Assembly: GCF_013394165.1 (NCBI RefSeq)
Contig: NZ_CP041330.1
Span: 1,232,501-1,296,500, forward strand
Reading direction: 5' to 3'
Length of the DNA stretch: 64,000 bases
From: Pseudoalteromonas sp. Scap06
Lineage (GTDB): Bacteria > Pseudomonadota > Gammaproteobacteria > Enterobacterales > Alteromonadaceae
In this document: piece by piece, positions 21,890-38,074 of the stretch
Numbering within the stretch: position 1 is the first letter of the stretch
Layout: every line of letters begins with the position of its first letter
Position numbers and translations under genes: made by a program
Notes under the pieces: model-generated
What the model was told of the DNA's origin: nothing
What the model saw: the letters and a program-made list of their open reading frames with translations, nothing else
The model's database searches: none

Positions 21890-22804
21890 TCACTTATTTA
21901 TAATGTAGTCTAAGGCACCTGAAATTGCAGCAACTTGCGCTAATATACACTCTTCAGGGTTAGCCGTTGCACTGTCTGGATATACTTCAGTGGTGGTGAC
22001 ATACGCAGCTTCAGAAAATCCCATACATAAGCCTAAATCACGGGCCGCGTAATTAATTACCCCAAATTGCGCTTGTGGTACACCAATTAATTGCTGATTT
22101 TCATCGCTAGGTGCAATATGCGTTACTTTTTCAACATGTTCAATAATTGCTTTTTGAAAAGCAGGCTCTGGTTTGTTGCTATCAGCCACTAAATAAAAGC
22201 CATCAGGAATGTTCCAGTTGGTGTTTACTTTGCCTTCACGAGCCGCGAGTGCTGGTCTAAATTCACTGTTATCAGAATCTGTTGTTTCATGTAAATCGAT
22301 ATGCGCGATTAAATCAGTATTTAAAGATTGCACATAGTTCATTACTGCCGCTGATTCTTGTGCTGGACTGCCCTGATAAAAAGAGCGGTTAGGGTCTACC
22401 GCATCTGGGTTCCAACGATTAATCGTTTCATAACCCCATGGGCTAATACAGGGGGTAATTACAATATTAAAGTGCTCAGCGTACTTATTTGCCAATGTTT
22501 TAGCGAATCTTAAAGCGCCATGAACACCACTGGTCTCGTAGCCATGTACGCCGCCAGTAATTAAAACAGTGGCTTTGTTTGTATCAAAATTAGTGGTTTT
22601 TAACGCGTACAAAGGGTAGCTACCTGCGGCATAATTAAGCTCACCGTATTGCTGTACTTCTAGAGTGCTTTTAAGTTCATCAATTAATGTTACGACTTCT
22701 TGTTGATAGCTTCGCTTAATTTTTTGTGCCTCAAGCCATTGGATTTTATTATTGTTGTTCCACTTCTCACCAGGCGTACCAATTGGGTAACTACTGTTAT
22801 TCAT
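21890..22804 (-). CDS. M14 family zinc carboxypeptidase
   Basis: A 304-residue metallo-carboxypeptidase. The HxxE zinc motif is in TGGVHGYETSGVHGALRF (about residues 81-98), the third ligand is in IAHIDLHETTD, and a late TTEVYPDS carries the likely catalytic Glu. NRWNPDAVDPNRSF matches the substrate-binding region. It has no signal peptide, so it is probably cytosolic. It differs from the CCP-like enzyme at 9984. The substrate is unknown. A 17-bp dyad AGCGTTA-GCT-TAACGCT (22871-22887) lies about 70 bp upstream and could be an operator. Confidence 0.85.
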   Translation of the reverse strand: MNNSSYPIGTPGEKWNNNNKIQWLEAQKIKRSYQQEVVTLIDELKSTLEVQQYGELNYAAGSYPLYALKTTNFDTNKATVLITGGVHGYETSGVHGALRFAKTLANKYAEHFNIVITPCISPWGYETINRWNPDAVDPNRSFYQGSPAQESAAVMNYVQSLNTDLIAHIDLHETTDSDNSEFRPALAAREGKVNTNWNIPDGFYLVADSNKPEPAFQKAIIEHVEKVTHIAPSDENQQLIGVPQAQFGVINYAARDLGLCMGFSEAAYVTTTEVYPDSATANPEECILAQVAAISGALDYIINK

Positions 22805-23001
22805 ATTAAACCTTTAAGTTGAATTATCTCTGCGGGCTATAGAGCACATAGACCATAATGACGAAAATAAAGCGTTAGCTTAACGCTGACTAAAATAGCG
22901 CGCAAGTATATGCGATAGTCACTGCATTAGTTAATGGCTGAGCTTGAATGCGGATAGTACCTTTGTTGCATAAAGTCTTTTAAAAACCATGCGGCAAACT
23001 C

Positions 23002-23262
23002 ATGTCTGCACTCTACATCGGCTTTGCTGTATATGTAACACAGTGCATTTTAGATGTTGCAAGTAGGCGGCTACGCCCTGTATTAATGACCGCTACAACC
23101 GCTATGTTTGGTTTATTGCCGCTGGTGTTTGCAACAGGTCCAGGAGCTGAAATACAAAAGCCATTAGCTATCGTGGTTATTGGCGTGTTAATTACCTCCA
23201 CTATTACTACCCTTTATTTATTACCTATCTTCTATGGTTGGTTGGAGAAAAAATATGGCTGA
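23002..23262 (+). pseudogene. C-terminal remnant of a heavy-metal RND efflux pump (CzcA/CusA type)
   Basis: Only the last 86 or so codons remain of a protein normally about 1,030 residues long. They carry the conserved end of heavy-metal RND pumps: SRRLRPVLMTATTAMFGLLPLVFATGPGAEIQKPLAIVVIGVLITSTITTLYLLPIFYGW. The ATG at 23002 is an internal codon, not a real start. No other part of the pump or its partner genes is present. The remnant overlaps a broken DUF3240 gene by 8 bases, which preserves the original operon order. Confidence 0.85.
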
Positions 23263-23558
23263 ACAGTTACTTTTTACCCTAAATGCACCCACAAATATAA
23301 AAGATGACGTAGTTGATATATTAATAGGCATAGACTGTATAACCGGCTTTAACTTAAAAAAATTCAAGGCTATAGCAAAGAGCACAGCGAGTTTGATATT
23401 GCCGAGCAAGTAGAAGGGTATCGTAGTTTTTATCAATTTGAGGTGCATATTTTATTATCTGAACTTGCCATACTAAAAACGACGCTAAGCCCTGTTTGTA
23501 AGTACACACCGTTAAATATTGGGTAACCCCGGTTTATGAAAGTGAGCATATTGGATAG
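23255..23558 (+). pseudogene. frameshifted DUF3240 gene
   Basis: ATG at 23255 opens a frame MAEQLLFTLNAPTNIKDDVVD.., typical of DUF3240 proteins, which are encoded right after czcA/cusA in Shewanella-like genomes. The frame breaks at a run of seven A (23356-23362). The next frame continues as IQGYSKEHSEFDIAEQVEGY..FEVHILLSELAILKTTLSPVCKYTPLN. A second break near 23515-23523 is needed to reach YWVTPVYESEHIG and the stop at 23556-23558. Two frameshifts mean the gene is dead. Confidence 0.75.
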
Positions 23559-23679
23559 TTACCATATATTAGATTAACTTTGAGAGTCACTTCAATTGGA
23601 TTAGTTATTAGACTTATTTAATTGATTTTGACAACTTATCAATGTTTAATTGAATGACATGTATTAATTGTTGTTTATT

Positions 23680-25953
23680 ATGCACTTTCTCCATAAGTAC
23701 TTCTTACTTAACGATCATCATACTGCCCATGATGAAGTCGCACACTGGCGGGTGAGTGCACTGCGGATAATTTTAACTCTCGTTACTTTGCTCTGTTTTT
23801 TGGTAGTTTGTTATACATACACCCGCGCAATTGAATTCAACCTAATTTACATTGCAGTTATTACTATTAGTTTTTTCACTATTGCTTTTAGTCTTTTATT
23901 AGCAAGTAAGCGATTTTACACATTTAGTGCAAACGCACTTTTATTAACTATCGTTGCTGGTAGTTTATCAATGAATTTATTTTTAACTGACTTAGAGCTT
24001 GCAAAGGTGGGTTCTATGTTTATGTATTCATGTCCCATCATTGCTCTTATGCTACTCGGTTACAGAACGGCTTTGGCCTACGGTATTTTAAACATCATAC
24101 CTTTTTACATGATTATTAATAATGTTGATTTATCTGGCTATTCAGGAATATCAAGCCAATTACCAGAAGCTGACTTATATATTACAGGCCTGATATTTTT
24201 ATTTTTTAATATTTGTATTCCACTGGCTACTGCGCGAACAATTGTTGCTGCCAAACGTTTAAACAAAACCATGTTAAATGCTAATAGCTTCCTTAAAGAT
24301 AAAAACGAGCTTTATCGCACCTTATTTACTGAATCTAATAAAGCTAAAATTATTGTCGACGAAAATTTAGTAATTACAGATTTAAATCAACATGCTATTG
24401 AAATGTTTGGATTAAAAAACAGCTTGAAAGAAAAGGCTGAGAGAATTGATGGATTATTCCCTGCACTTAATAGCAAAGAGTTAAATATAAAAAATCAAAT
24501 CATAGAATATAAGAGTCGCTACTATAAGAGTAATTATCAGCAAATAGCAATGAGTACAAATTACCGAGTGTATGACTTTTATGATTGCACGCAAGAGCAG
24601 TTAATTAAACAAAACTTGTCTATGATGGAGCAAGAGAACAAACGTCTAAGGTTTAGAGACTCGCAGACGAAATTGCCTAATCGAGAGTGGTTTGAGATGC
24701 AATGCGATAGGTTAACGTCTAAATATCAAAAAGGCTTTTATATCGTAGTCACACAAAGCGCAAATAGTGAATATTTAAATTTAAAACTTAAAAAGGCTGA
24801 CTCCCAATCATTGCTAATTACTGCTTATAAGCGCTTAAAAGCAATGCCTGAAGGGCCCTTGCTTTGTGCGTATATAGAAGGTAGTAAACTTTGCTTTATT
24901 GTTGGTTCAAGCTCAAGTGAACAGCAAAACAAGTTATTAATACAAATTAAAAGCACTTTAGATCAAACTTATGATGTATTTGGTACTAATTACCAACAAT
25001 CATTTTTATTTGGTTTTGCTAAGTGTCCTGAGCACGGTGAAGATAGTGCTATTGTTCTTAGTAATGCGTGTGAGGCGCTCAAGCTCGCAGACTATAACTT
25101 GCCTTTTAGTGGTTACAACCAAAAACAATCACAGGCTTTTATGGAAAAGTATGAAATTTCCATGTTACTTGATGAAGCTTTGCAACAAAATGATCTGTCA
25201 GTACATTATCAACCTAAAGTGAATGCAAAAGGTGAATGTATTGGGCTTGAAGCATTAGCTCGTTGGCATAGCTCTGTGCTTGGTAATATATCGCCAACTG
25301 TCTTTATTCCTATTGCAGAAGAGTACAGAATGATTAGTAGATTAACGGATTTAATTATTCAAAAAGTCTGCGCTCAAATTGCCCAATGGAATAAAGTTGG
25401 TTTGCCACTTTTACCTATAGCAATAAACATATCTTTGCTCGATTTTAGCCAAGCTGACTTTATGTCAAAATTGGTGAAATATTTGGCGGATTTTAATGTA
25501 AAACCGAATCAAATAGAATTAGAGCTTACCGAAACATCACTTGAGGCTAACCAAGCCCACTCTCTAAAACTTATGCAAACTTTGCAAGATTGGGGGTTCT
25601 CTATTACTGTGGATGACTTTGGTGTTGGCTACTCAAATATTGCACGCCTTGCTGATTACCCTATTGATAAACTTAAATTGGATCGCTCTTTAATAAGTCA
25701 GGTTACACGCTCTACACGCCAGAAAAGCTTAGTTAAAGCTATGCATGTGATGTGTGATGAACTCAATATCAAGTGTGTAGCCGAGGGAGTAGAAACCGAA
25801 GAACAGGTCTTAATAATGTCCGAAATGGGATGTAAAGAGTTTCAAGGTTATTACTTTTCTAAACCCATGAGTGCTCAGGTGTATGCTGAATGTATAAATG
25901 AAAATGGTCTTGTTTTTATGACAAAAAACTCAGCTACAATGAAAGGTAGTTGA
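23680..25953 (+). CDS. membrane EAL-domain c-di-GMP phosphodiesterase with degenerate GGDEF
   Basis: About 757 residues. The N-terminal 180 residues hold some six membrane helices, followed by a PAS-like segment (residues about 210-300). A GGDEF-type fold (RDSQTKLPNREWFEMQC onward) lacks the GGDEF signature and should be inactive. The EAL domain (about 490-745) keeps the residues needed for activity: E in GLEALARW, N in AINISLLDF, E in ELTETSLE, DD in VDDFGVGYSN, K in KLKLDRS, E in AEGVETEEQ and Q in FQGYYFSKP. It should hydrolyse c-di-GMP at the membrane. I start at ATG 23680, since 23668 is a TTG without SD. Confidence 0.88.
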   Translation: MHFLHKYFLLNDHHTAHDEVAHWRVSALRIILTLVTLLCFLVVCYTYTRAIEFNLIYIAVITISFFTIAFSLLLASKRFYTFSANALLLTIVAGSLSMNLFLTDLELAKVGSMFMYSCPIIALMLLGYRTALAYGILNIIPFYMIINNVDLSGYSGISSQLPEADLYITGLIFLFFNICIPLATARTIVAAKRLNKTMLNANSFLKDKNELYRTLFTESNKAKIIVDENLVITDLNQHAIEMFGLKNSLKEKAERIDGLFPALNSKELNIKNQIIEYKSRYYKSNYQQIAMSTNYRVYDFYDCTQEQLIKQNLSMMEQENKRLRFRDSQTKLPNREWFEMQCDRLTSKYQKGFYIVVTQSANSEYLNLKLKKADSQSLLITAYKRLKAMPEGPLLCAYIEGSKLCFIVGSSSSEQQNKLLIQIKSTLDQTYDVFGTNYQQSFLFGFAKCPEHGEDSAIVLSNACEALKLADYNLPFSGYNQKQSQAFMEKYEISMLLDEALQQNDLSVHYQPKVNAKGECIGLEALARWHSSVLGNISPTVFIPIAEEYRMISRLTDLIIQKVCAQIAQWNKVGLPLLPIAINISLLDFSQADFMSKLVKYLADFNVKPNQIELELTETSLEANQAHSLKLMQTLQDWGFSITVDDFGVGYSNIARLADYPIDKLKLDRSLISQVTRSTRQKSLVKAMHVMCDELNIKCVAEGVETEEQVLIMSEMGCKEFQGYYFSKPMSAQVYAECINENGLVFMTKNSATMKGS

Positions 25954-26024
25954 ATTTAATAACTATGTTCTAGCGACCTTTTCGGATTAAAATTTCAAAC
26001 TAGGGTAACGAATTTTTTGGCGTT

Positions 26025-26054
26025 AAATGCTGCTGAAATATTTCAGCAGCATTT
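26025..26054. terminator. 30-bp perfect palindrome between convergent genes
   Basis: AAATGCTGCTGAAAT is followed directly by its reverse complement. It sits between the EAL gene and iadA, which converge, and probably ends both transcripts. The T-tracts are short (three T), so it is not a strong textbook terminator. Confidence 0.65.
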
Positions 26055-26067
26055 GAGCTGTTCTAGT

Positions 26068-27234
26068 TTATTCAAACAATCCTTTTATAACCGCGTGGCG
26101 GTTTTGCACCATTAATATGCCGTTAGCCCATACATACTCAGGGGTTAAGGTCTCTTTATCGAGAAGCACAACATCCGCGTCGCTTGTTGCTTTAAGGCGG
26201 CCTTTATCAAGTCCTAAAATATCGGCAGGGTTACTGGTTATGCTCATTAAAGCCTGCTCTATAGGGACGTTATATTCTTTGACTGCTTGCTGAAACGAAC
26301 TCAGTAGGGATGCCTCTTTGCCCACCTCAAGCCCTAATAAATTAAAGTCTTTATCAAAAATAGGTAAACTAGCATGGCCATCTGAGCTCATAGTGAGTTG
26401 ATTTGGTGCTACGCCTTGTTCTAAGCAGTAGGCAAGGGCATGGGCTGCTGCATATTCACCATGTGCTAAATCGTAGTCGGTGGTGCTGGTGGTAAAGTCG
26501 ATAGTACCGCCCTGATCACAAAAGTGAATACCGGCATCAAGAAGTGCTTTATTGCGGTTCATATGCGTAGGATAAAACTGTTTAAGCTTAATATCACTTT
26601 GCTGAGCCACCTGATGCAAAATACTCAAGTGACTATCGACAGGGCCGACATGAATACTCACGGTGCCTTTTTTACCACTGAGCATACCGGCTACTTTGGC
26701 CTCGGCTGCCAATTCTGCTAATTGCTGGACCGTAGGTTGGCTACTGCGATGATCAGAAATAGCCACTTCGCCAACACCTATAAACTCCTCTATATACATG
26801 ATGTCGTCAGTGATTGAGTGAGTAAGAGTTTTAGCGGGTAAATGATACGAACCGGTATGGCAAAATACATTCAGCCCTTGCTCTTTTAGGCCTTTTGCTT
26901 TGGCAACCAAATTGGTAAGCGTACGTGAGCTTGAGTCGGTACCCAGTGCGCCCACCACTGTGGTAGTGCCCGATAGGGTTGCATCGGTTAGGTTCATTTC
27001 AGGGGTGCGGCTGGCAAATCCAGCTTCGCCACCGCCACCGGTAATATGCACTAACGAGTCAACAAACCCCGGCGTAACAAGCTTATTTTTACCGTCAATT
27101 CGTTTGACGAGTACACTGCTGTCGAGGATTATATTTTCGTCAATAGCAATGATTTTACCACCGCCAATTAAAACATCTTGTGTGCCTAGGTAGGTAGGTG
27201 CATAAACGTTTGCACCTTGAATTAAAGTTAACAT
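26068..27234 (-). CDS. iadA: isoaspartyl dipeptidase
   Basis: An amidohydrolase-superfamily enzyme of 388 residues that splits beta-aspartyl dipeptides. Most IadA signatures are present: GGGGEAGF (substrate-binding Glu), VVGALGTDSSSRT, TGSYHLP (Tyr), ISDHRSSQP (Arg), a metal His in VSIHVGP, a metal His plus Arg in YPTHMNRNKAL, and the metal/catalytic Asp in MSSDGHAS. Two metal positions differ from E. coli IadA. HVH is DSLVH here (Leu61 in place of the first His), and the carboxylated lysine position appears as Glu156 (GVGEVAISDHR). In this locus the likely substrate is beta-Asp-Arg from cyanophycin. It is 12 bp downstream of the transporter gene, in one operon. Confidence 0.9.
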   Translation of the reverse strand: MLTLIQGANVYAPTYLGTQDVLIGGGKIIAIDENIILDSSVLVKRIDGKNKLVTPGFVDSLVHITGGGGEAGFASRTPEMNLTDATLSGTTTVVGALGTDSSSRTLTNLVAKAKGLKEQGLNVFCHTGSYHLPAKTLTHSITDDIMYIEEFIGVGEVAISDHRSSQPTVQQLAELAAEAKVAGMLSGKKGTVSIHVGPVDSHLSILHQVAQQSDIKLKQFYPTHMNRNKALLDAGIHFCDQGGTIDFTTSTTDYDLAHGEYAAAHALAYCLEQGVAPNQLTMSSDGHASLPIFDKDFNLLGLEVGKEASLLSSFQQAVKEYNVPIEQALMSITSNPADILGLDKGRLKATSDADVVLLDKETLTPEYVWANGILMVQNRHAVIKGLFE

Positions 27235-27246
27235 AACAAATTCTTT

Positions 27247-28650
27247 TTATTGATAATTAATAAAGTAAGCAAGAAATATAAAGCCGCTTGCTAATACAAA
27301 AAGTGCTAGAGCAAAGCGCCAAATAAACGCAGCCCATTCTCCCCAATCTAATTTCACGACCCCTAAACAACCAATTAAACTAGCTGAGGTGGGAATTAAA
27401 ATATTGGTTAATCCATCACCTAATTGAAAGGCCAATACCACAATTTGCCTTGATACATTGAGCAAATCGCCAAGTGGAGACATCAGCGGCATAGTGATGG
27501 CAGCTTGGCCTGAACCCGATGAAACAAAAAAGTTAAATACACTTTGAAACACCAGCATTCCCCAAGCTGCAATGTAATCTGGCACACTGGCTATGCTACT
27601 TGCACAGTAATAAAGCAGGGTGTTGAGAGTTGAGGGAGTGGTTAAATCACTACCGCCTAATAGTAATACAATGCCTTTAGCCAGTGCGACTAATAACGCC
27701 GCTGGCAATAATTCTTGTGCACCGTGTTTAAACGCATCCGCGCACTCATTCGCGGTTAGCTTTTTAAACACGATGGCAATTATTGCACTGATAAGGCCAA
27801 TACAAAAAAACTGTGCCGCAAGCTCAGGAATATAATATTGGCGAGCCATCACTCCCCATACAACCCAGGCTATGCCCAATACAAACACTAATAATGTGAG
27901 TGCATCGGCTAGGCTGAGTTTAATCGTTGGCTGATCACCCGTTTTTAGGGATTGTGTTTTTATCCGTTTTGCATAGCGCATAGTAAACACAAGGCCTACA
28001 AGGGTAAAACAAGCCCACGCTAACATACGAAAGCCCGCACCAGAAAATACTGGAATTTCAGCTATCGATTGCGCTATAGCAATGCTAAAAGGGTTCATCC
28101 ATGAGGTGGCAAAGCCTATTTGCGTAGCCACATAAGTTGTAAGTACAGTGACTTTAGCGTCGTAGCCAAGTTGTTGCATAATAGGGAGCAGCACAATACA
28201 AAATGCAATAGCCTCTTCGCCCATACCAAATACCGCGCCGCCTAACGAAAATAGTAAAAACAGTAAGGGAATAAACAGCCATTCAACCCGCTTGGTTTTA
28301 TTAATAAGTGCCATAATGCCGTTATTAATCGCACCGGTTTTCATAATAATGCCAAAGGCACCGCCAGTGATTAAAATAAACGCCATTACGCCAATAGCTG
28401 CACCATATTTATCACCCGACACTAAGCCTTCAAACAATACATTTGCTAAACCAATGTCCCCACCTTGTGCAAAAACAGGTGGTGATTGTTGGTCGTTAAC
28501 GGCTTGATATTGTGAAAGCTGCACAGTGTGGCTACCAGATTCTGCATTAAATACCCCGGGGGTAATAAATACCGTGGCCATATAGGCAATCACTGCCACA
28601 CACAGCAAAATGATGCTGGCATCGGGCATAGAAAATTGTTTTTGTTTCAT
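27247..28650 (-). CDS. YfcC-family transporter, probable dipeptide or amino-acid carrier
   Basis: A 467-residue inner-membrane protein with about twelve hydrophobic segments. Family patterns include ITGGAFGIIMKTGAINNGI, LGGAVFGMGEEAIAFCIVLLPIMQQLGYD and SSGSGQAAITMPLMSPLGDLL (repeated re-entrant-loop motifs typical of the YfcC/DcuC-like ion-transporter superfamily). E. coli YfcC is annotated as a putative basic amino-acid carrier on weak evidence. Here it lies between the TonB receptor and iadA, so I infer uptake of beta-Asp-Arg or a related product into the cytosol. Confidence 0.85.
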   Translation of the reverse strand: MKQKQFSMPDASIILLCVAVIAYMATVFITPGVFNAESGSHTVQLSQYQAVNDQQSPPVFAQGGDIGLANVLFEGLVSGDKYGAAIGVMAFILITGGAFGIIMKTGAINNGIMALINKTKRVEWLFIPLLFLLFSLGGAVFGMGEEAIAFCIVLLPIMQQLGYDAKVTVLTTYVATQIGFATSWMNPFSIAIAQSIAEIPVFSGAGFRMLAWACFTLVGLVFTMRYAKRIKTQSLKTGDQPTIKLSLADALTLLVFVLGIAWVVWGVMARQYYIPELAAQFFCIGLISAIIAIVFKKLTANECADAFKHGAQELLPAALLVALAKGIVLLLGGSDLTTPSTLNTLLYYCASSIASVPDYIAAWGMLVFQSVFNFFVSSGSGQAAITMPLMSPLGDLLNVSRQIVVLAFQLGDGLTNILIPTSASLIGCLGVVKLDWGEWAAFIWRFALALFVLASGFIFLAYFINYQ

Positions 28651-28747
28651 AATTTCACTTTAATAAAAGGTCATTGTGTTGATGCGTAAATAAACGCTTA
28701 AACGTACTTTAGCACTTAATAGGCAGTGTCACTGTAGCCATGACCTG

Positions 28748-28784
28748 TAATAAAAGGAAGGCCGCAAAGCGTTTGCTTTGCGGC
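28748..28784 (-). terminator. hairpin between the TonB receptor gene and the transporter gene
   Basis: GCCGCAAAGC and GCTTTGCGGC form a perfect 10-bp stem 7 bp after the receptor stop. On the minus strand it is followed by CTTCCTTTTATT. It may be a partial terminator or an mRNA-stabilising stem that sets receptor expression apart from the downstream genes. Confidence 0.6.
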
Positions 28785-28791
28785 TAAGTGG

Positions 28792-31719
28792 TTAAAAACG
28801 GTAGCTAATACTTAATTTGTAATTAGCACCTAGGGCATTATGATTAATTGAATCAAAGCCACGGTTTGAGCCATAAAGAGTGGGTGGCTGTTTATCAAAA
28901 ATATTATTGATGCGCGCACGCAAAGTCAGTGATTTATTAACATAAAAACCCGCTGATAAATCCCAAACGAGCCAGTCATCAACCTGATGCTCACCTTTTG
29001 AGTCTAATACGCCAAGCGAATCTAGCTCATCAATTTCACGACCACGCAGGCCTTTTATATCATCTTCGTAGCTGCTGGTGTAGTTTGCACCTAAGTTAAG
29101 GTAGTAATTTTGCGCTTCCCAATCTATTGACATACGCGCAACATTTTCAGGATAACGATAAGTTCCTACCAACTTCTCTAACGAGTCAGACCCCGGTTTA
29201 TTACGTTCAAACTCAAGGTAATGAGTACCGTCAAACGCAAAGGTCAAATCGCCGCTTGGTAATACAAACCTATGGTCAAACTTAAAGTCTATGCCTGCTA
29301 ATGTTTGTGTACCAGTGTTTTCAAGTGGGATAGCATGATCGCGAAACAACGGTAAAAATAGCTCGTCATCACGTGGGTTAAATTCATCTATATAACTGCT
29401 TAAAATTTCAGTTAAATTAGCGCCGTCTTGCTCTATGTTTAAACCACTGGTGTCGGTGACATCACATAATGCTTCATCGTACGATATGCCTTGCTCGCCC
29501 GGTGGGACAATGCCACAGTGACGAAGTGACGCATCAGTTATAGCGCGGTCGAGCACTGCGGTCATGTTGGTATCGATTACTTCTTCATGATCAAACTGCC
29601 AATAATCAATGGTTAAATTAGTATTAGCCGATGGACTCCATGCAAAGCCAACACTGATAGCCTCAGATTCTTCTGCATTTAGATTAGGGTTACCTAACTC
29701 TAACGAATTAACACTCACTTGGGTGCCATCACCCATACAGTATAAATCGGCTACAGCTTGGTTGGCACCACAGTCAAAAGTAGATTGCGTGGTTCTTAAT
29801 TTAACGCCAGCTTGAGTTAATGATGGTGCTCTAAACGAGGTTGACCATGAACCACGAACAACTAACGAATCAGTCGGGCGATAGCTCAAACCTATTTTAG
29901 GATTAAAGGTGCCACCAAAATCATCGTAATGATCGTATCGACCCGCTGCTTGCAGCTCTATTTGCTCACTCAGTGAAATACTTAATTCAGCAAAGGCGGC
30001 ATATTGAGTGCGCTCGGCTTCTGATAAGCTAGAGCCAAAGCCAAATACATCAACAAGGTAGTCTTTGTCTGCTTGAGCTTGTGAATTAAGCGAAGGAAAG
30101 TCGCTTAGCTCTTCACGGCGTGCTTCTACCCCAAATGAGGCATAGGCTGGTAGGTCGTTAAAGGTAAATAGTTCACCATTAAAGTTAGCATCCCAGCCGT
30201 AAACAGTACTTTCTCCACTGCGTGTTGGGCGAGCTTGCGCTGTTGCCAAAACGGCATCATTAGCGGCGTCGCCTTGAAGGAAAGGGTTGTAAAAAGGTAG
30301 CAACTCCCCAGATACACAATTTAAGTCAGTACCGTCATAACTTGCCAGCGTACCGTCTGAACATAGCTCGCCTGTAATCGCGCCATGAAACTGGTAACGA
30401 TTATATACCCCTGCAATCGCTTCTTGCTCTGAACGTGAGCGAGAAAGAGTAACACCAGATTCCCAACCCCAATCACCAATTTCACCACTTAGACTGCTTA
30501 CCAAGCGAAAGTTTTTCGTTTCTACTTCCACCGTTCTTGGGGCATTAAAGCGCGCGTCAAACGCAAAGCCATATACTTCTCGGCCACTTTGAGTATCAAA
30601 TGGGTCAATATAAAGTTGATCCATTAAATCATTACTACCATCGGCATTATCGTAAATAAATAAGGCGTCTTCTAAAACATACGGGCCGTCGTCATCATTA
30701 ATTTGGTTAATAGGTGAGGGCGATGAATACGCTTTTGCCTTGGTCTGACTGTAAAAAAAATCAGTATGCCATTGTAGACCACCAAGCTCACTATTAAACA
30801 TAAAGCCAGTTGAAAGGCTTTCAAATGGCGTTTCTAGGTAATCATCTTGATTTGGGTAGTAAGCACAAATTTGTTCATCAAGTTCAGTAGTAACTAACTC
30901 GGTTTTGCAGTTTGGTGATGGAAGTTCGTTACCATCTCGGCTGCTGAAATAATAAATATTAGGTGAGTTCTCCAGCTTAGGTAAATAGGAGTAACCATTC
31001 ACTAAAGAGGGAGAGGCCGTGTAATTACGATCGGTGGCTTTAAAAGCGTTACGGTCATATATATCTGCAAATACCGTTAAGTTACTCTCGCCTATTTTTG
31101 TACCATACACTAAGTTTAATTGTTTTTTACTTTCGTCATGTTGATCAAAGCTATCGGCAAACGAAGTATTGATTTCAGCGCCTTCAAAATCATCTTTTAA
31201 AATATAGTTAATAACACCCGCTACAGCATCGGCACCATAAACGGCTGATGCACCGGTGGCTAAAATATCAATACGTTCAATGGCCGCAAGTGGAATAGAA
31301 TTAACATCTACAAAGTTTTCAGTGCCTGCAGCAAATGAGCTAGGCGCAACTCTTCGCCCATTTATTAATGTAAGCGTTGCTGATGGCCCCATGCCTCTTA
31401 AGCTCGCTGCTGATTGACCCGCTGGTGTTGAGGTAGACGTACCGCCACTTTCAGAGGTTGAAAATGTGCCACTTCCGCCTTTAAAAACAGATAAATCTTT
31501 GAGTAATTCATGAATGGTATTAGCACCAGAGCGTTTGATTGCATCTTGGTCTAGCACGGTTAGTGGAATAGTGCCTTCCAGATCAACGCCTTTTAAGCGA
31601 GATCCTGTTACTTCTACTCGTTCAATGTTGGTATTAGTTTGAGTTTCTTGTGCATACACACAAGTGACAGGGCTCAGTAAAGTGCTTACTGTGGCCGCAA
31701 TAGTTAGTTGACGAAACAT
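28792..31719 (-). CDS. TonB-dependent outer-membrane receptor
   Basis: A 975-residue receptor with a signal peptide (about 1-23, ending VYAQE). The N-terminal plug holds ERVEVTGSRLKGVDLEG, SAASLRGMGPSATLTLINGRRV and ATGASAVYGADAVAGVINYILK. A 22-strand-type barrel follows with Asp/Asn-rich loops, ending in the outer-membrane signature LSISYRF. The C-terminal IFDKQPPTLYG region is typical of Alteromonadales receptors that import peptides or glycans. It is divergent from the cyanophycinase gene and upstream of the transporter and dipeptidase genes. I infer import of cyanophycin fragments, but the sequence alone does not show the ligand. Confidence 0.93.
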   Translation of the reverse strand: MFRQLTIAATVSTLLSPVTCVYAQETQTNTNIERVEVTGSRLKGVDLEGTIPLTVLDQDAIKRSGANTIHELLKDLSVFKGGSGTFSTSESGGTSTSTPAGQSAASLRGMGPSATLTLINGRRVAPSSFAAGTENFVDVNSIPLAAIERIDILATGASAVYGADAVAGVINYILKDDFEGAEINTSFADSFDQHDESKKQLNLVYGTKIGESNLTVFADIYDRNAFKATDRNYTASPSLVNGYSYLPKLENSPNIYYFSSRDGNELPSPNCKTELVTTELDEQICAYYPNQDDYLETPFESLSTGFMFNSELGGLQWHTDFFYSQTKAKAYSSPSPINQINDDDGPYVLEDALFIYDNADGSNDLMDQLYIDPFDTQSGREVYGFAFDARFNAPRTVEVETKNFRLVSSLSGEIGDWGWESGVTLSRSRSEQEAIAGVYNRYQFHGAITGELCSDGTLASYDGTDLNCVSGELLPFYNPFLQGDAANDAVLATAQARPTRSGESTVYGWDANFNGELFTFNDLPAYASFGVEARREELSDFPSLNSQAQADKDYLVDVFGFGSSLSEAERTQYAAFAELSISLSEQIELQAAGRYDHYDDFGGTFNPKIGLSYRPTDSLVVRGSWSTSFRAPSLTQAGVKLRTTQSTFDCGANQAVADLYCMGDGTQVSVNSLELGNPNLNAEESEAISVGFAWSPSANTNLTIDYWQFDHEEVIDTNMTAVLDRAITDASLRHCGIVPPGEQGISYDEALCDVTDTSGLNIEQDGANLTEILSSYIDEFNPRDDELFLPLFRDHAIPLENTGTQTLAGIDFKFDHRFVLPSGDLTFAFDGTHYLEFERNKPGSDSLEKLVGTYRYPENVARMSIDWEAQNYYLNLGANYTSSYEDDIKGLRGREIDELDSLGVLDSKGEHQVDDWLVWDLSAGFYVNKSLTLRARINNIFDKQPPTLYGSNRGFDSINHNALGANYKLSISYRF

Positions 31720-31759
31720 TGTAGTACCTTTTGTCTTTTTTAAGCGCGCAGAAATAGGT

Positions 31760-31788
31760 TTAATATTTCTTAAGGCTTTAATTATTAT
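31760..31788 (+). promoter_or_regulatory. candidate sigma-70 promoter for the cyanophycinase leader
   Basis: TTAATA (31760-31765) and TATTAT (31783-31788) are separated by 17 bp. The start site would be near 31795, just before the folded leader region. The -35 match is weak. Confidence 0.35.
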
Positions 31789-31794
31789 GGTTTT

Positions 31795-32072
31795 TTAGAC
31801 AGGGCAATGGTGAAATGACACGCTGAGCCCCTCACAGAAATTAGTGAGGTGGTGGGCTACTCGTCAAACCACTCCGAAAGGTAGTGTGGTGAGTAGAAAT
31901 ATGTTGTAAGCAGTGTTGCTTTTTTAAACATAATTCTCGTTCCAAAAAGGTTTTTGACAAAGCTAGCAAATGGGTGCTAGCTTACTCGCGTTTTAAAGTT
32001 CCTTTTTTTTATAGCAAGTGAGAGACGCTCTCGCAAGTTATTTCTTATAATTTTTCACATGAGTGTAACATA
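31795..32072 (+). promoter_or_regulatory. structured 5' leader RNA upstream of cyanophycinase (candidate)
   Basis: The gap between the divergent receptor and cyanophycinase genes is rich in nested inverted repeats. CCTCAC/GTGAGG is enclosed by AGCCC/GGGCT (31826-31858). CTACTC/GAGTAG (31857-31896) encloses ACCACT-CC, a GAAA tetraloop (31876-31879) and GG-T-AGT..GGT. A short hairpin AAGCA/TGCTT runs into T6 (31908-31926). A perfect 9-bp stem AAGCTAGCA/TGCTAGCTT lies at 31960-31983. The GNRA loop exists only on the plus strand, so the RNA probably leads into cyanophycinase. I do not recognise a known riboswitch class. Confidence 0.45.
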
Positions 32073-33773
32073 ATGGAACGAATAAATTTACCAAACAAGC
32101 GGTTAGTTAAATCGCGAATAATAACCGCTTTTTACTCAATTTTAATTGCTTTTTCGCTACAGTTAGGCGCAAAAGAGTCTAATCAAACTCTTGTTTTAGT
32201 GGGGGGAGCTCTCACAACATGCGCCAGTTTAAGCTCTAAAAACTGTGAAAAAAATACTCAGATCTCGGGTAAAACGCATAATGTATTTGCGCTCTCTCAC
32301 ACTAAAATTAGCCAAATAAAGCAACAATGGCCCAGTAAAAATAGCCAAGCTAAAAATAACACTATTAAAAATTTAGCAACAATGCAGGCTAAGTCATCGC
32401 CCACATTATCGAAAAAAGAACTGTTATGGTTGTGGCGCGATATTGATAGCAAACAGCTCAATAGTTTATCGGATCAAGAATACAATTTTGTAATAGATAT
32501 GCTTGAAGTAGCTCAAATAAAAAGCGACAACACACGGCTAAAAGAGCGGGTAAATACTGCGCTTAATAGCGAATCGGCAGCGACAGAGATTTTGCAGTTT
32601 ATATCGGGTAGTTTAAAAGTTAATAACTCCAACCCGAGTATACTGGCCATTACCGCCTCAAGCAGAGACCCTTATGAATCTGCTGATTTTTACGAAGGAT
32701 TACTAAGCTTCCCTAATGTAAATTCGCAATGGCTTGCATTAACCCCTGCGCTTGCTAAAGCAATAACCACCAACAAGTGTGATGATTTAACCACGCTTAG
32801 GCACTCCGAAATGGGGCTATATCAACGCGAACATATTTACCCTGATCGCACACAAGCTGAATATCAATTGTGTAAAAAAGGCATCGACGCTTTAGTAGAG
32901 CTAATAAAAAACAGTACCGGTGTGATGTTTAATGGTGGCGATCAAAGCCTAACTCGAAAAGTATTATTTGATGAAAATAACCAGCCTTACCCTTGGACAA
33001 AAGCATTACAGTCTCGCCCTGTTATTGTTGGAACAAGTGCAGGTACCGCGGTGCAAAGTGGTGGGCAAGCCCACGCCGGGAATGTGGTGATGATCACCAA
33101 TGGCACTAGCTTGTCGGCATTGAAAGAAGGCGCACAAGCCATTGATGCCCCAAGTGAACGCTCAAACAGCGATAGTTTAACTTACAACCGCTTTGGGGGT
33201 TTAGGCACATTTAGTTACGGTGTACTCGATACACACTTTAGCGAGCGAAACCGTACATTAAGACTAGGCACTTTGCTCGACGACTTAAGCGCAAACCAAG
33301 ATCAGCCGACATTCGGTTTTGGTGTAGACGAAACCACAGCCTTAGTGGTGATTAAATCTGAAGCTGGCAATTTAATGACCGTAATTGGTAAAAATGGTGT
33401 AGTGATGGTTAAATCAACAGGGCAAGCTCAGGCTAAAACTAAAACCTATAGTTACTCTTATTGGCCTGTGGGAAGTGTGATTGATATTAAAAATAACGAT
33501 TATACCTTAAGTCAGCGCAGTATTAGCCAAGCATTACCAGCAATTAAAATACCGCCTTTACCAGTTCAGCGTTTTGGCAGTATTTTAATGGATGCCAAAT
33601 TACGCTCTTTAACGCAAGCCATGTGCCTTAGCCAAGAACAAACGGCTGTTGGTCAGCAAGGTGAGTTTATTATTAGCCTATCTACCACGCCTGAGTCGGC
33701 ATATCATCGTATTAGTGCTGCGCAGTATGGCTGTGCGGTGAGTAATTTAGAAATTGCAGTGAGTACCTTTTAA
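32073..33773 (+). CDS. exported cyanophycinase (peptidase family S51)
   Basis: The enzyme cleaves cyanophycin (a poly-Asp backbone with Arg side chains) to beta-Asp-Arg dipeptides. 566 residues, twice the length of cytosolic CphB, with an N-terminal signal segment (about 16-33, ending LQLGAKES). LVLVGGALTTC opens the S51 domain. An insert of about 130 residues follows. Then come MFNGGDQSLTRKV, the nucleophile Ser322 in IVGTSAGTAVQSGG, LDTHFSERNRTLRL and GFGVDETTALVV, all typical of the family. The signal peptide points to a periplasmic or secreted (CphE-like) enzyme acting on polymer from outside the cell. It is divergent from the receptor-transporter-dipeptidase operon, which could use its products. 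Confidence 0.9.
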   Translation: MERINLPNKRLVKSRIITAFYSILIAFSLQLGAKESNQTLVLVGGALTTCASLSSKNCEKNTQISGKTHNVFALSHTKISQIKQQWPSKNSQAKNNTIKNLATMQAKSSPTLSKKELLWLWRDIDSKQLNSLSDQEYNFVIDMLEVAQIKSDNTRLKERVNTALNSESAATEILQFISGSLKVNNSNPSILAITASSRDPYESADFYEGLLSFPNVNSQWLALTPALAKAITTNKCDDLTTLRHSEMGLYQREHIYPDRTQAEYQLCKKGIDALVELIKNSTGVMFNGGDQSLTRKVLFDENNQPYPWTKALQSRPVIVGTSAGTAVQSGGQAHAGNVVMITNGTSLSALKEGAQAIDAPSERSNSDSLTYNRFGGLGTFSYGVLDTHFSERNRTLRLGTLLDDLSANQDQPTFGFGVDETTALVVIKSEAGNLMTVIGKNGVVMVKSTGQAQAKTKTYSYSYWPVGSVIDIKNNDYTLSQRSISQALPAIKIPPLPVQRFGSILMDAKLRSLTQAMCLSQEQTAVGQQGEFIISLSTTPESAYHRISAAQYGCAVSNLEIAVSTF

Positions 33774-33884
33774 TTTAATGCCACGCAAGCTAATTTAATT
33801 AAACACGCTGCTTAGTTGATTTTAACTTTAGCGGCCATACTATATTTAAAGCGTGTTTATTAAATCACAACAAAAGGAAGGTTC

Positions 33885-34436
33885 ATGAGTAAAGTAGCGG
33901 TTATTTATTTTTCGGGATATGGCCATACCAAAAAAGTGGCTGAATTTGTAGCTGATGGAGCAAACGCTCAACTTATTGCTATTGATGAAAATGGCGATAT
34001 ACAAGACGCCGATTGGGATACGTTAAACAATGCAGACGCCATTATTTTTGGTGCACCTACCTATATGGGCTCATATCCTTGGCAGTTTAAAAAGTTTGTT
34101 GATGCTACCTCTAAAGTATGGTTTACCATGGGGTGGAAAGACAAAATATTTGGCGGGTTTACTAATAGCGGCAGCCTAAATGGCGATAAACAAGTCACTC
34201 TAATTAGTATGCAAACATTGGCTTCGCAACATGGTGGAATTTGGGTAAGCCTAGGGTTACCACCGGCCAATAAACTGGAATCAACTCGTCAAGACATCAA
34301 TAATTTAGGCGGTTCAGTTGGCGTATTAGTGCAATCACCTACTGATGCAGATGAATCTGCTATTCCATCAGGCGATTTAGAAACGGCCCGTTTATACGGC
34401 GAACGTGTAGCTGATATAGCCAAACGCTTAAAGTAA
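33885..34436 (+). CDS. flavodoxin-like NAD(P)H-dependent reductase (WrbA-like)
   Basis: A 183-residue flavodoxin-fold protein. The FMN phosphate loop is YFSGYGHTKKVAEF (residues 8-21). The second loop is FGAPTYMGSYPWQFKKF, and the third is GGFTNSGSLNGDKQVTL. These match the WrbA/NAD(P)H:quinone oxidoreductase group. The likely role is two-electron reduction of quinones. The SD is AAGGAAGG, and a terminator follows. It may be cotranscribed with cyanophycinase, but a 110-bp gap separates them. Confidence 0.85.
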   Translation: MSKVAVIYFSGYGHTKKVAEFVADGANAQLIAIDENGDIQDADWDTLNNADAIIFGAPTYMGSYPWQFKKFVDATSKVWFTMGWKDKIFGGFTNSGSLNGDKQVTLISMQTLASQHGGIWVSLGLPPANKLESTRQDINNLGGSVGVLVQSPTDADESAIPSGDLETARLYGERVADIAKRLK

Positions 34437-34458
34437 AAGTCACTCGATAAAATAAGTT

Positions 34459-34485
34459 AAAAAAGCCACATTGTGTGGCTTTTTT
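34459..34485. terminator. bidirectional terminator
   Basis: GCCACA and TGTGGC form the stem around TTG, flanked by A and T runs, between the convergent flavodoxin and PilZ-like genes. Confidence 0.9.
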
Positions 34486-35080
34486 AGTTTGATAATTCCA
34501 ATTTTTGTTGTTTGTGCTCTAGCTGGTATAGGCTTGAAAATTGACGTTTATGAACTTCAAATAAATACGCTCTTAGCTGCTCTTTACCATGGTGAATGTG
34601 TTTAATTTTTGCTGCTATGCCACACTTACTCTGCCTAACCGGTTCTATATCTAATGATATCGCCGCTTCGTTGGGTAAAATAAATTGCATATTCTGCAAC
34701 TCATCAAGTTCACTGTGTACTGATGTGGGTTTTAAAAATATCCCTGTGCTAGATATAGATTCAATGCAAAAACCTTGGCTTTGGATATTTAATTCGCTCA
34801 ACCGCCAGCTGCGCTGAATACCTTTAGTGTCAATTACTTCGGGGGCTTCTAATACAGTACTGAAATGGCCTAATTCATCGGTTTTAAATTGAAGTGGGAA
34901 CCATAGTTGGTAGTGGGCTACTTCTGCTAATAAGGTTAATTTAGCTTGACCAAGTAAATGCGCAATACCATCTGGTATTGATGCTTGTACTGTTAACTTT
35001 GTTTCATTGATTAATGCACTACTTTGACTAGGTTCAAATAAGCCAGATAAAAAGTTAATTTCTTCGTCAGACAAATCCAT
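34484..35080 (-). CDS. hypothetical protein, possible PilZ-like domain
   Basis: A 198-residue cytosolic protein. The middle has beta-rich sequence with RSWRLSELNIQSQGFCIESISSTGIFLKP, which loosely recalls the RxxxR/D-x-S-x-x-G layout of PilZ domains. The exact signature is not present, so c-di-GMP binding is doubtful. The C-terminus is Gln/Lys-rich. It lies alone, convergent with the flavodoxin gene. Confidence 0.55.
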   Translation of the reverse strand: MDLSDEEINFLSGLFEPSQSSALINETKLTVQASIPDGIAHLLGQAKLTLLAEVAHYQLWFPLQFKTDELGHFSTVLEAPEVIDTKGIQRSWRLSELNIQSQGFCIESISSTGIFLKPTSVHSELDELQNMQFILPNEAAISLDIEPVRQSKCGIAAKIKHIHHGKEQLRAYLFEVHKRQFSSLYQLEHKQQKLELSN

Positions 35081-35467
35081 GTATTTTCCTTAATACCTAA
35101 ATTGTGGATTCTATTCCTCACAAGGTTACTGCCCAATGAATGAACAGTTTATTATTTTGTAAGCTCCGCATAGCGCGGCTAAATTTTTATACAATTAAAA
35201 ATTTCAACCTTCCTGATTGAAATTTTAAGCTGTTGATTTTAATTGGTTTTGTTTGTTTTTAAACTCAGTGAGTTAAATAGTTGTATGCGTTTTTTAGTAT
35301 TTTAACCTTATTATCACCAATAAGTTAAGTAATAAAGTGTACAAAATTAAAACGCTTCGCGATGTTTTTATATCAACAATGCGTAAATGAGACTTAGGTC
35401 TAGCTTACGAAGCATAAGGAAATACTTAGAATAGCGCCAAATAAAAATGGGGTTTAAGGGGTTCCAA
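35081..35467. other. AT-rich intergenic region with overlapping hairpins
   Basis: There is no gene in these 387 bp. AAATTTTTA/TAAAAATTT (35181-35204) and AAATTTCAA/TTGAAATTT (35199-35225) share bases and cannot form together. AACTCA-G-TGAGTT lies at 35262-35274. The region should hold the promoter of the CoA-transferase gene and that of the minus-strand gene. Confidence 0.4.
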
Positions 35468-36961
35468 ATGCAATTAGAACGAATTCGTCGTAGCGACTTA
35501 CACAACAAAGTAATGTCTGCAGAGCAGGCCAGTTTATTTATTAAAGACGGTATGACCGTGGGTATGAGTGGTTTTACTCGTGCCGGTGAAGCGAAAGCTG
35601 TACCACGTGCGCTTGCAGAGCGAGTGCGTGAAAACCCAATGAAAATTAACTTAATGACGGGCGCGTCATTAGGAAACGACTTAGATAAGCTACTAACTGA
35701 ATCAGGTGCGTTAGCGCGTCGTATGCCATTTCAAGTAGACAGCACATTACGTAAAGCGATTAACAACGGTGAGGTCATGTTTATTGACCAGCATTTATCT
35801 GAAACCGTTGAACAGCTACGTAATCATCAGTTAACTATGCCTGATGTAGCGGTCATTGAAGCCGTAGCTATTACTGAAGAAGGCCACATAGTACCTACAA
35901 CATCAGTGGGCAATTCAGCCAGCTTTGCTATTTTTGCCAAACAGGTAATTGTAGAAATTAATATGTTACACCAGCCAGAGCTTGAAGGGCTGCACGACAT
36001 TTATATTCCATCTTATCGTCCTACACGTACGCCAGTGCCGCTAGTGAAAGTAGATGACCGCATTGGTAGTACTGCAATTCCAATTGATCCGGCTAAAATT
36101 GTGGGTATTGTATTTACCAATCAAAGTGACTCATTTTCAACCGTTACCGACCCAGATGCAGATACAGCCTCTATTGCACGTCACTTAGTGAACTTTTTTA
36201 AAGAAGAAGTAGCACAACAGCGTATGCCTGAAAACCTAGGCCCATTACAAGCCGGTATAGGTAACATTGCCAACGCAGTAATGATGGGTTTATTAGACTC
36301 TGATTTTAAAGACCTCACTATGTATTCAGAGGTACTACAAGATTCTACCTTTGATTTAATTGATGCGGGTAAACTTAATTTTGCATCAGGGTGTTCAATT
36401 ATTTTATCAGAGCGTTGTAACTCACAAGTATTTAATAACCTTGAAAAGTATCGTGATAAGCTAGTACTTCGTCCACAAGAAATGTCGAACCACCCTGAAA
36501 TTGTGCGTCGTTTAGGTATTATTGCAATTAACACTGCACTTGAGTTTGATATATATGGCAACGTTAACTCAACCCATGTGTGTGGTACTAAAATGATGAA
36601 CGGTATTGGTGGTTCAGGCGACTTTGCACGTAATGCGCATGTATCGGTGTTTGTAACTAAATCAATTGCCAAAGGTGGCGCTATTTCAAGTGTTGTGCCT
36701 ATGGTAAGCCATGTTGATCATACTGAGCACGATGTTGATATTTTAGTAACCGAGCAAGGCCTTGCTGATTTACGCGGTTTAGCGCCACGCGAACGTGCAA
36801 TTGAAGTCATTAAGCACTGTGTACACCCAGATTATCGCAACGCCATGCTTGACTACTACGAGCGTGCATGTGTTCGTGGCGGTCATACGCCTCATATTTT
36901 AGAAGAGGCATTCAGCTGGCATACCCGCCTTGAGCAACAAGGCACAATGAAGCAAAGTTAA
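35468..36961 (+). CDS. succinate:CoA-transferase / acetyl-CoA hydrolase family
   Basis: About 497 residues of the class I CoA-transferase family that moves CoA between acetyl-CoA and succinate or hydrolyses acetyl-CoA. The catalytic Glu is in MYSEVLQD. The CoA-binding loop is in NGIGGSGDFARNA, and TEQGLADLRGLAPRERA is near the C-terminus. It probably handles acetate overflow or recovery. I start at ATG 35468 with AAGGGG upstream; ATG 35447 has no SD. The gene is alone and is followed by a strong terminator. Confidence 0.9.
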   Translation: MQLERIRRSDLHNKVMSAEQASLFIKDGMTVGMSGFTRAGEAKAVPRALAERVRENPMKINLMTGASLGNDLDKLLTESGALARRMPFQVDSTLRKAINNGEVMFIDQHLSETVEQLRNHQLTMPDVAVIEAVAITEEGHIVPTTSVGNSASFAIFAKQVIVEINMLHQPELEGLHDIYIPSYRPTRTPVPLVKVDDRIGSTAIPIDPAKIVGIVFTNQSDSFSTVTDPDADTASIARHLVNFFKEEVAQQRMPENLGPLQAGIGNIANAVMMGLLDSDFKDLTMYSEVLQDSTFDLIDAGKLNFASGCSIILSERCNSQVFNNLEKYRDKLVLRPQEMSNHPEIVRRLGIIAINTALEFDIYGNVNSTHVCGTKMMNGIGGSGDFARNAHVSVFVTKSIAKGGAISSVVPMVSHVDHTEHDVDILVTEQGLADLRGLAPRERAIEVIKHCVHPDYRNAMLDYYERACVRGGHTPHILEEAFSWHTRLEQQGTMKQS

Positions 36962-36966
36962 TACAT

Positions 36967-36990
36967 AAAACCCCGCATCTGCGGGGTTTT
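36967..36990. terminator. bidirectional terminator
   Basis: CCCCGCA and TGCGGGG form a 7-bp GC stem with a 2-nt loop, with A4 before and T5 after, between convergent genes. Confidence 0.92.
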
Positions 36991-37000
36991 TATTTTGTAA

Positions 37001-37360
37001 TTAGTCTAAAATATTAGACTCAGACCAAACCCTAAGATCGTGAAGAATTCCTAGTGCAGAGCGCCCAAACTCAGTGAGCTCGTAGGTGACAGCAATAGGT
37101 CTAGTGCTGATCACCGTCCTTAAAACCATCTTATTGGCCTCTAACTCTTTTAAACGTTGATCTATCATTTTTTTGCTCGCTCCACCTAACATTCGAGTTA
37201 GATCATTAAAGCGAACAGGTTCATCTTTTAAGTGATAAATAATAGAGCTTGTCCACTTCCCGCCAATTAAGCGCATTCCTTTTTCAATAGCACAAGGTTC
37301 TAAGCAGGCATTTAAAACTTTTTTTCTTCCCTTACTATCTGTTTCTATAGAGCTTTCCAA
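37001..37360 (-). CDS. HxlR family transcriptional regulator
   Basis: A 119-residue winged-helix regulator. It has the HxlR start CLEPCAIEKGMRLIGGKWTSSIIYHL and the core FNDLTRMLGGASKKMIDQRLKELEANKMV, with a basic wing. The N-terminal cysteines (about 17 and 22) are placed as in thiol-sensing members. The start appears to be TTG with AGAGG seven bases upstream. It is divergent from a quinone-reductase-like gene and a peroxiredoxin-like gene, which it likely represses until electrophile or oxidant stress. Confidence 0.88.
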   Translation of the reverse strand: MESSIETDSKGRKKVLNACLEPCAIEKGMRLIGGKWTSSIIYHLKDEPVRFNDLTRMLGGASKKMIDQRLKELEANKMVLRTVISTRPIAVTYELTEFGRSALGILHDLRVWSESNILD

Positions 37361-37382
37361 AATTTAACCTCTAAAATAGGGT

Positions 37383-37435
37383 GGTTACTAAAAGTATACT
37401 AATTGAATCTATTCTTCAGGTAACTATTATATACC
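37383..37435. promoter_or_regulatory. two direct repeats, probable HxlR operators
   Basis: GGTTACTAAAAGTATACT (37383-37400) and GGTAACTATTATATACC (37419-37435) share GGTWACTAWWA(K)TATAC. Their starts are 36 bp apart, about three to four helical turns. They lie between the divergent HxlR and reductase genes, where the promoters should be. Confidence 0.55.
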
Positions 37436-37481
37436 ACATTAAAGTAAAGACCAATTTTTGTACTATTTTTGGAGAGATCAC

Positions 37482-38063
37482 ATGAGCAAGGTACTCATTA
37501 TAAATGCACACCAATATTATTCTTTTTCAGAGGGCAAATTAAATGCCACCCTAGTTGATGTAGCATCATCGATACTGATAGAAAAAGGCCATGAAGTTAA
37601 AACCGTAACTATGACAGATAGTATTGATGTAGAGGCACAATTAGCACTTCATAAATGGGCTGACGTTGTCTTACTGCAATCACCTATTAACTGGATGGGC
37701 GTGCCATTTTCGTTTAAAAGATATATGGACGAGGTGTATACAGCCGGTATGGGTGGCGCCATGTGTAATGGCGATGGTCGTCACCAGGACGACCCAAAAA
37801 GCGGTTATGGCACAGGTGGCACACTTAAAGATACTAAATATATGATGTCACTCACATTTAACGCACCAGAGGAGTCATTTAACAATTTAGAAGAATTTTT
37901 TAATGGTAAAAGTGTTGACGACTTAATGTTCCCAATGCATATGAACTTTAAGTTTTTTGGTATGACAGCAATGCCTACCATTGCTTGTTTTGATGTTATG
38001 AAAAACGCCGATATAGATACTGACTTAGCGCGCTTTAAAGCACATATAAGTACACACTTTTGA
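37482..38063 (+). CDS. NAD(P)H-dependent oxidoreductase, MdaB/Kef-ancillary-like flavodoxin fold
   Basis: About 193 residues. KVLIINAHQYYSFSEGKLNATL is the FMN/NAD(P)H-binding start. VVLLQSPINWMGVPFSFKRYMDEVYTAG matches MdaB-type quinone reductases, as does the GYGTGGTLKDTKYMMSLTFNAP segment. It likely reduces quinones by two electrons. The start is ATG 37482 with GGAGAG upstream. It precedes the peroxiredoxin-like gene by 11 bases, forming an operon divergent from HxlR. Confidence 0.88.
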   Translation: MSKVLIINAHQYYSFSEGKLNATLVDVASSILIEKGHEVKTVTMTDSIDVEAQLALHKWADVVLLQSPINWMGVPFSFKRYMDEVYTAGMGGAMCNGDGRHQDDPKSGYGTGGTLKDTKYMMSLTFNAPEESFNNLEEFFNGKSVDDLMFPMHMNFKFFGMTAMPTIACFDVMKNADIDTDLARFKAHISTHF

Positions 38064-38074
38064 GAGGAAACACA

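Follow-up and report, generated by a model that had tools for sequence, protein, structure and literature searches.

A probable cyanophycin scavenging locus in Pseudoalteromonas sp. Scap06, and the loss of S51 catalytic residues where its partner genes are absent

Gene clusters for the use of cyanophycin have been described before. The cyanophycin utilization locus, which comprises a cyanophycinase, iadA, and a transporter, goes back to Ben Hania et al. 2017 and the Bacteroidetes strain L21-Spi-D4, as cited in PMC10206079. Cyanophycinase and isoaspartyl dipeptidase genes are clustered in 45 of 52 genomes without cphA1 (Sharon and Schmeing 2023, PMC10206079). In Citromicrobium sp. JLT1363 a TonB receptor lies near a cyanophycinase gene, and cyanophycin was proposed as its substrate (Tang et al. 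2012, PMC3400609). Cyanophycin use was inferred for Thalassotalea PS06 (PMC7564069), and a secreted putative cyanophycinase for P. tunicata (PMC2536512). With such loci and a receptor beside a cyanophycinase already published, the idea of a cyanophycin scavenging locus is not new. The locus considered here consists of genes for a long S51 protein, a TonB-dependent receptor, a YfcC-type inner-membrane carrier, and an isoaspartyl (beta-aspartyl) dipeptidase, IadA. It lies in a stretch of 64,000 nucleotides of Pseudoalteromonas sp. Scap06, called the window (NZ_CP041330.1; G000:C1:1232501-1296500), in a genome of 4.13 Mb on two contigs. Named homologues at 91-95% identity are from Pseudoalteromonas.

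The locus probably serves to scavenge cyanophycin for a host that does not itself synthesise the polymer, and its activity, uptake, and induction are predictions. The CphE-like S51 protein would be exported and would cleave the polymer beyond the inner membrane, in the periplasm or in the medium around the cell, releasing beta-Asp-Arg or short pieces. The TonB receptor would take cyanophycin fragments or the dipeptide across the outer membrane, and the YfcC paralogue would carry beta-Asp-Arg across the inner membrane. As the last step, cytoplasmic IadA would split beta-Asp-Arg to Asp and Arg. The substrate, the direction of transport, and the co-regulation of the genes are what we infer. A sequence-only reading of the window had placed the receptor, YfcC, and IadA genes on the minus strand, divergent from S51, and had taken the four as a self-contained unit. 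The open reading frames (ORFs) are there (Table 1), and profiles confirm the families of all but S51, which is assigned by its residues. The unit is supported as well; its linkage recurs in other genera, and its S51 has the full CphE residue set. Such a unit could give common marine heterotrophs a concrete way of acquiring nitrogen stored by cyanobacteria.

CphE of Pseudomonas alcaligenes has the catalytic residues Ser171, His224, and Glu251, and the pocket residues Gln136, Asp222, Arg228, Arg230, and Arg233, with Thr223 replacing Gln173 of CphB (PMC3235067). The window S51 contains the same catalytic set (Ser322, His388, and Glu420) and the same pocket set (Gln291, Asp386, Arg392, Arg394, and Arg397), with Thr387 in the place of CphB Gln173. 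Three of its motifs, GGDQ (288-291), GTSAG (320-324), and DTHFSERNRTLR (386-397), can be aligned with CphB enzymes whose loci come from genomes that bear CphA1. All nine CphE residues are retained in 30 of 30 linked S51 proteins compared, which are the window protein and 29 others; a second, shorter S51 of L067, with Lys for one Arg and Gln for Thr, is excluded from this count. CphE has a Sec signal (PMC3235067), and the N-terminus of the window S51, a hydrophobic stretch followed by LGA-KE, is export-like by eye. A crude 19-residue hydropathy scan, which does not test export, flagged neither S51 nor the receptor.

The four genes stay together in many genomes. Among 21 loci found in named genomes with S51 as the query, 19 have all four in the same divergent order, including that of Salinimonas profundi; the remaining two are L041, truncated by a contig end, and L043, which has S51 only. 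A second sample covered 247 genomes of the host's order; in it, positions were compared for 50 IadA rows, 115 YfcC rows, and the strongest 51 of 67 S51 rows. S51, YfcC, and iadA occur together in 22 loci from 20 genomes, 11 genera, and five families of this one order. The TonB receptor is present in 20 of the 22 complete loci including the window; the layout is divergent in 19 of these 20, and L086 has every gene on the same strand. This layout count takes in the window and L073-L075, and the named and order-level sets overlap (L103/L046). L085 and L089 have another large protein in the receptor position, with plug and outer-membrane barrel matches in L085 and a carboxypeptidase-regulatory-like domain match only in L089. 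A search of other genomes for this linkage, put forward by the sequence-only reading as a check, succeeds in 11 genera and five families, and the recurrence of S51, YfcC, and iadA across five families, in most loci with the receptor, is a new finding. The flanks contain no fifth shared gene, as no family occurs in more than three of the 74 flanking proteins scanned (73 hand-picked from 106 listed flanking ORFs, plus one arginase-family gene). Judged by S51 only, apart from gene context, the genera named among the homologues include Rheinheimera, Arsukibacterium, Corallincola, Neiella, Thalassotalea, Alteromonas, Colwellia, and Alkalimonas.

The loss of S51 catalysis in the absence of the receptor, YfcC, and IadA genes (the operon) is the most surprising part, and it is the strongest sequence evidence that the four genes would act together. 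The same-genus set consists of the window genome and 35 others, 36 in all. A long S51 is present in 23 of these. The operon accompanies it in 12, and in the other 11 the surroundings of S51 give no match to the receptor, YfcC, or IadA; one of the 11, L058 (G031), lies close to a contig end. IadA occurs in 12 of the 36 genomes, always within the module, while in the other same-genus genomes the receptor and YfcC were sought around S51. The nucleophile Ser322 is retained by 12 of 12 operon-linked S51 proteins and by 0 of 11 operon-less ones (Gly in ten, Ala in one), and His388 is also lost in eight of the 11. All 11 operon-less genes are full length except that of L066 (G008, without iadA), where S51 is split into two frames (L066:8834-10446) that were compared as separate pieces. 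Pairwise ratios of nonsynonymous to synonymous change (dN/dS) are 0.15-0.25 for operon-less S51 (seven pairs) and 0.09-0.22 for linked S51 (six pairs), with pairs of dS at least 1.6 dropped and dS above 1 in several retained pairs. The operon-less S51 is therefore under purifying selection.

The loss seems to have happened more than once. The operon-less label needs four changes on a 55-row S51 tree, and four on a 24-row tree, where two are forced by well-supported (starred) branches. This suggests two to four independent losses of the nucleophile. A single origin of the dead S51 is disfavoured, with p-AU 0.027 for a single clade on the 24-row tree; some placements in these trees are insecure, and the alignments still included the motif columns. 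L064 shares its flanking genes and their order with L054, L059, and L032, which are linked loci, but lacks the three operon genes between these flanks as well as a small ORF beyond S51. Three further named replicons have no operon beside S51. Ser is absent from two of them, L152 and L154, and L152 is not independent of L064 because the two are 99% identical.

The motifs are also absent from a further clade of long S51 paralogues (seven rows, L076-L082) and from L140. In six of the seven, all but L076, the dead S51 is followed directly downstream on the same strand by a kinase-like protein of 682-781 aa (e.g., L080:8930-13142). Pfam scans of three such neighbours identify each as a hybrid histidine kinase that contains PAS, receiver, and Hpt domains. 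All three motifs are missing from 84 of 218 S51 homologues among the matches listed, some of them named cyanophycinase (P0033, P0040, and P0044). A count by that name overstates cyanophycin use, because some of the proteins so named lack the catalytic serine. The repeated loss of catalysis without the uptake genes ties the four genes together in the manner of a natural experiment, and it turns attention to the function of the dead, conserved proteins. A tentative view, possible and on the doubtful side, is that the cyanophycinase fold turned several times into exported, non-catalytic proteins kept by selection. The S51 nucleophile would have been lost after the operon was lost in place, and the deeper, histidine-kinase-linked clade may have been reused to sense ligands that are rich in arginine or carry beta-aspartyl groups. 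Together with the module YfcC and the altered IadA, this would make a substrate-locked pathway with a non-catalytic afterlife.

Several observations weigh against the scavenging reading. The window S51 misses the cut-offs of both of its profiles, with 19.3 bits against PF03575 (cut-off 23.9) and 75.5 bits against the cyanophycinase model TIGR02069 (cut-off 126.6), and is named CphE-like for this reason. For PF03575, one of two module relatives passes (L075, 41.4 bits) and the other lies just under (L089, 23.2 bits). The S51 assignment is thus remote by profile and secured by residues. The third named replicon, L153 (P. shioyasakiensis A316), retains the S51 residues without an adjacent operon; that replicon has no iadA, and the chromosome of this strain was not searched. 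A catalytic S51 always paired with a linked operon is rejected as an absolute rule, by L153 and by the shorter S51 proteins of L136 (464 aa) and L137 (493 aa), which have intact motifs and no adjacent operon. The L153 exception would be explained if the operon was lost too recently for S51 to have decayed, or if it lies at another site. L093 and L096 keep YfcC and iadA while S51 and the receptor are both absent, and the receptor of L087 and L097 is in two ORF pieces. The HxH metal motif of the window IadA reads DSLVH, with Leu for the first His. The IadA of cyanophycin clusters is promiscuous for beta-aspartyl dipeptides, with no preference for Arg (PMC10206079), and the pathway could therefore serve other substrates.

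The Leu at the first HxH position (DxLxH) is found in 55 of 55 module IadA rows aligned, in which some genomes are counted twice. The remaining ligands are kept, namely the second His, the bridging Glu, His, His, and Asp, with their roles taken from PMC10206079 and PMC5517026. The first zinc of CpsIadA is bound by His73, Glu166, and Asp293 (PMC5517026), and an active module IadA is plausible because the equivalents of these residues are kept. His occupies the first position in the five PDB chains printed and in the IadAs of L106-L109, which are from CphA1-bearing genomes. Leu is shared by other IadAs, those of L110 and L111 (two further CphA1-bearing genomes) and of L128-L130. IadA as a module-specific protein is rejected by the tree. 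The window IadA aligns with solved IadA chains from its residues 1-2, which leaves no room for an export signal and makes it a predicted cytoplasmic protein. In Pseudoalteromonas sp. THAF3 an arginase-family gene (PF00491, L133:11652-12761) adjoins iadA. It was dropped as pathway evidence and is regarded as a shared flank only, because the same gene and its neighbours (DUF2189, udp, and cdd) flank the operon-less S51 in L152-L154.

The YfcC of the module differs from canonical YfcC. Three score classes, set after the scores were seen, were compared in the order-level sample. All 24 YfcC rows at 540-799 bits lie within 1 kb of iadA, and 22 of them also within 8 kb of S51. None of the 16 canonical rows (at least 800 bits) is near iadA or S51, and among the 75 lower-scoring rows only two fragments of one contig-split locus (G162) are. 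Module YfcC forms one group with moderate support (83/78) beside canonical YfcC (98/93), and is probably a separate paralogue group. A crude scan finds 10 hydrophobic segments in the window YfcC. The host genome has a single iadA over the cut-off and a single strong DcuC/YfcC-family match. Module-type YfcC outside the host's order was found in none of 299 genomes across the phylum; other phyla, including Bacteroidetes, were not sampled. The receptor and YfcC had been put forward as new parts of such a system. The receptor is not new in view of Citromicrobium (PMC3400609), while the claim for YfcC appears to hold, as no paper in the open-access literature searched has both YfcC and cyanophycin. 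YfcC as the carrier of a cyanophycin locus seems unreported, and a likely substrate is hereby assigned to one branch of these poorly known carriers.

The distribution of cyanophycin synthetase suggests that the window host scavenges cyanophycin and does not make it. The sequence-only reading put forward marine cyanobacteria as the source of the polymer; synthetase is carried by other bacteria as well (PMC10206079). CphA1 is over its cut-off (850 bits) in six of 30 genomes examined, exactly the six given with a CphB-type enzyme. Of the 23 genomes that carry either the module (22) or its YfcC-iadA half (G181), none has it. The window genome has no TIGR02068 match at E 1e-50. The 30th genome, G022, with an operon-less S51, has no synthetase match. 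Partial synthetase matches near 200 bits, far under the cut-off, occur in G048 and G066, two of the 23. The one in G048 (L138, G048:C1:1826719-1827633, 214 bits) lies about 17 kb from the module, with a weak second S51 match between the two.

The same substrate could be used by another route, in which the receptor imports the polymer or oligomers, S51 is periplasmic, and YfcC handles arginine and not the dipeptide. Porins can admit molecules as small as dipeptides, a Sec-type N-terminus by itself takes a protein no further than the periplasm, and the database name of NF008611 is basic amino acid antiporter. This route is nevertheless unlikely. With no room for an export signal on IadA, the dipeptide has to arrive in the cytoplasm uncleaved, and its predicted importer is YfcC, no other inner-membrane protein being recurrent in the unit.

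General salvage of isoaspartyl peptides, with S51 trimming beta-aspartyl peptides of aged protein, YfcC and IadA recovering dipeptides, and cyanophycin being incidental, is quite improbable. It would explain the loci with YfcC and iadA alone, the same-Leu IadAs outside modules (L128-L130), and the lack of Arg preference of an IadA from a cyanophycin cluster (PMC10206079). Against this, S51 keeps the Gln, Asp, and three Arg that form the CphB/CphE pocket (PMC3235067), and these pocket residues decay in operon-less relatives. That the four genes are chance neighbours is scarcely credible, even with no regulator or other shared gene found alongside in the flank scan, given the linkage in five families, the same order in 19 of the 21 named loci, the complete set of four in the window and in 19 further loci of the order-level sample (18 of the 19 in the same order, the two sets overlapping), and the absence of the three operon genes between shared flanks in L064.

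Table 1. Features of the candidate cyanophycin scavenging locus (window positions)
Feature	Positions	Strand	Size	Basis
iadA, isoaspartyl (beta-aspartyl) dipeptidase	26068-27234	-	388 aa	TIGR01975, 441 bits (cut-off 331)
yfcC-type inner-membrane carrier, module paralogue group	27247-28650	-	467 aa	NF008611, 607 bits (cut-off 500); PF03606, 389 bits
Hairpin between receptor and carrier genes	28761-28784	-	10-bp stem	terminator-like site
TonB-dependent outer-membrane receptor	28792-31719	-	975 aa	PF07715 plug and PF00593 barrel
Divergent intergenic region, presumed shared promoter region	31720-32072		353 bases	
Long S51 protein, CphE-like cyanophycinase	32073-33773	+	566 aa	TIGR02069, 75.5 bits (sub-cut-off), and residue alignments

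The gap between the receptor and YfcC genes contains a strong hairpin, read from 28784 to 28761. Of 51 such gaps read, 39 are at least 30 bases long. All 17 gaps tested, picked from the 39 to avoid near-duplicates, contain hairpins with differing letters; against 60 mononucleotide shuffles each, none was as stable in 15 gaps and one was in the other two. L105, a long gap outside the 17, has a weak hairpin only. The hairpin could let the receptor be made in excess. A promoter scan gave 11 sites (shuffle mean 17.9) and a terminator scan 6 (8.0), both fewer than in shuffles. No ArgR-type box with up to three mismatches is present in the divergent region of the window, and three-mismatch matches are scattered in the others. 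Rfam gave no match on 21000-38500. Near the locus, window positions 21890-22804 encode a zinc hydrolase of AstE/AspA-like or M14-like type, which weakly matches a model for N-acetyl-ornithine deacetylase; several relatives without the operon also have this kind close to S51. The modules of L135 (976-2361) and L067 (14569-15381) each have at their edge an additional, shorter S51 whose motifs are intact or nearly so. L142 and L143, from other gammaproteobacterial genomes (G366 and G370), have a TonB receptor near a sub-cut-off cyanophycinase match, and these genomes have no iadA match.

The window S51 resembles CphE of P. alcaligenes in Ser-His-Glu, Gln, Asp, three Arg, and Thr for Gln173, and differs in length, the CphEal gene having 1260 bases (PMC3235067) and the window S51 566 aa. 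Compared to the CphB rows, it has about 100 extra residues between the first strand motif and the core, and a longer C-terminus. Module IadA is similar to the type I enzymes CpsIadA (PMC5517026) and LmIadA (PMC10206079) in TIGR01975, the bridging Glu, and the later His, His, and Asp, whereas the first His of HxH in type I is Leu in all module rows. Module and canonical YfcC belong to the same NCBIfam family over the cut-off, and form separate tree groups, the canonical form never being near iadA in the sample. The outside enzyme, TonB receptor, inner-membrane carrier, and inside enzyme are in line with a polysaccharide utilisation locus, as the sequence-only reading had suggested. In contrast, the polymer is a peptide, and no SusC/SusD pair or glycan gene recurs among the proteins scanned. 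The receptor near a cyanophycinase is shared with Citromicrobium sp. JLT1363 (PMC3400609), and in the window locus iadA and YfcC lie with them. The clustered cyanophycinase, iadA, and transporter of the cyanophycin utilization locus (Ben Hania et al. 2017, via PMC10206079) are all found here, and the window locus differs from it in being gammaproteobacterial, in its TonB receptor and perhaps its YfcC-type carrier, and in its divergent long S51. The linkage across families, the separate YfcC paralogue, the CphE residues of 30 of 30 linked S51 proteins, the nucleophile loss without the operon, and the Leu of IadA are new to these known systems.

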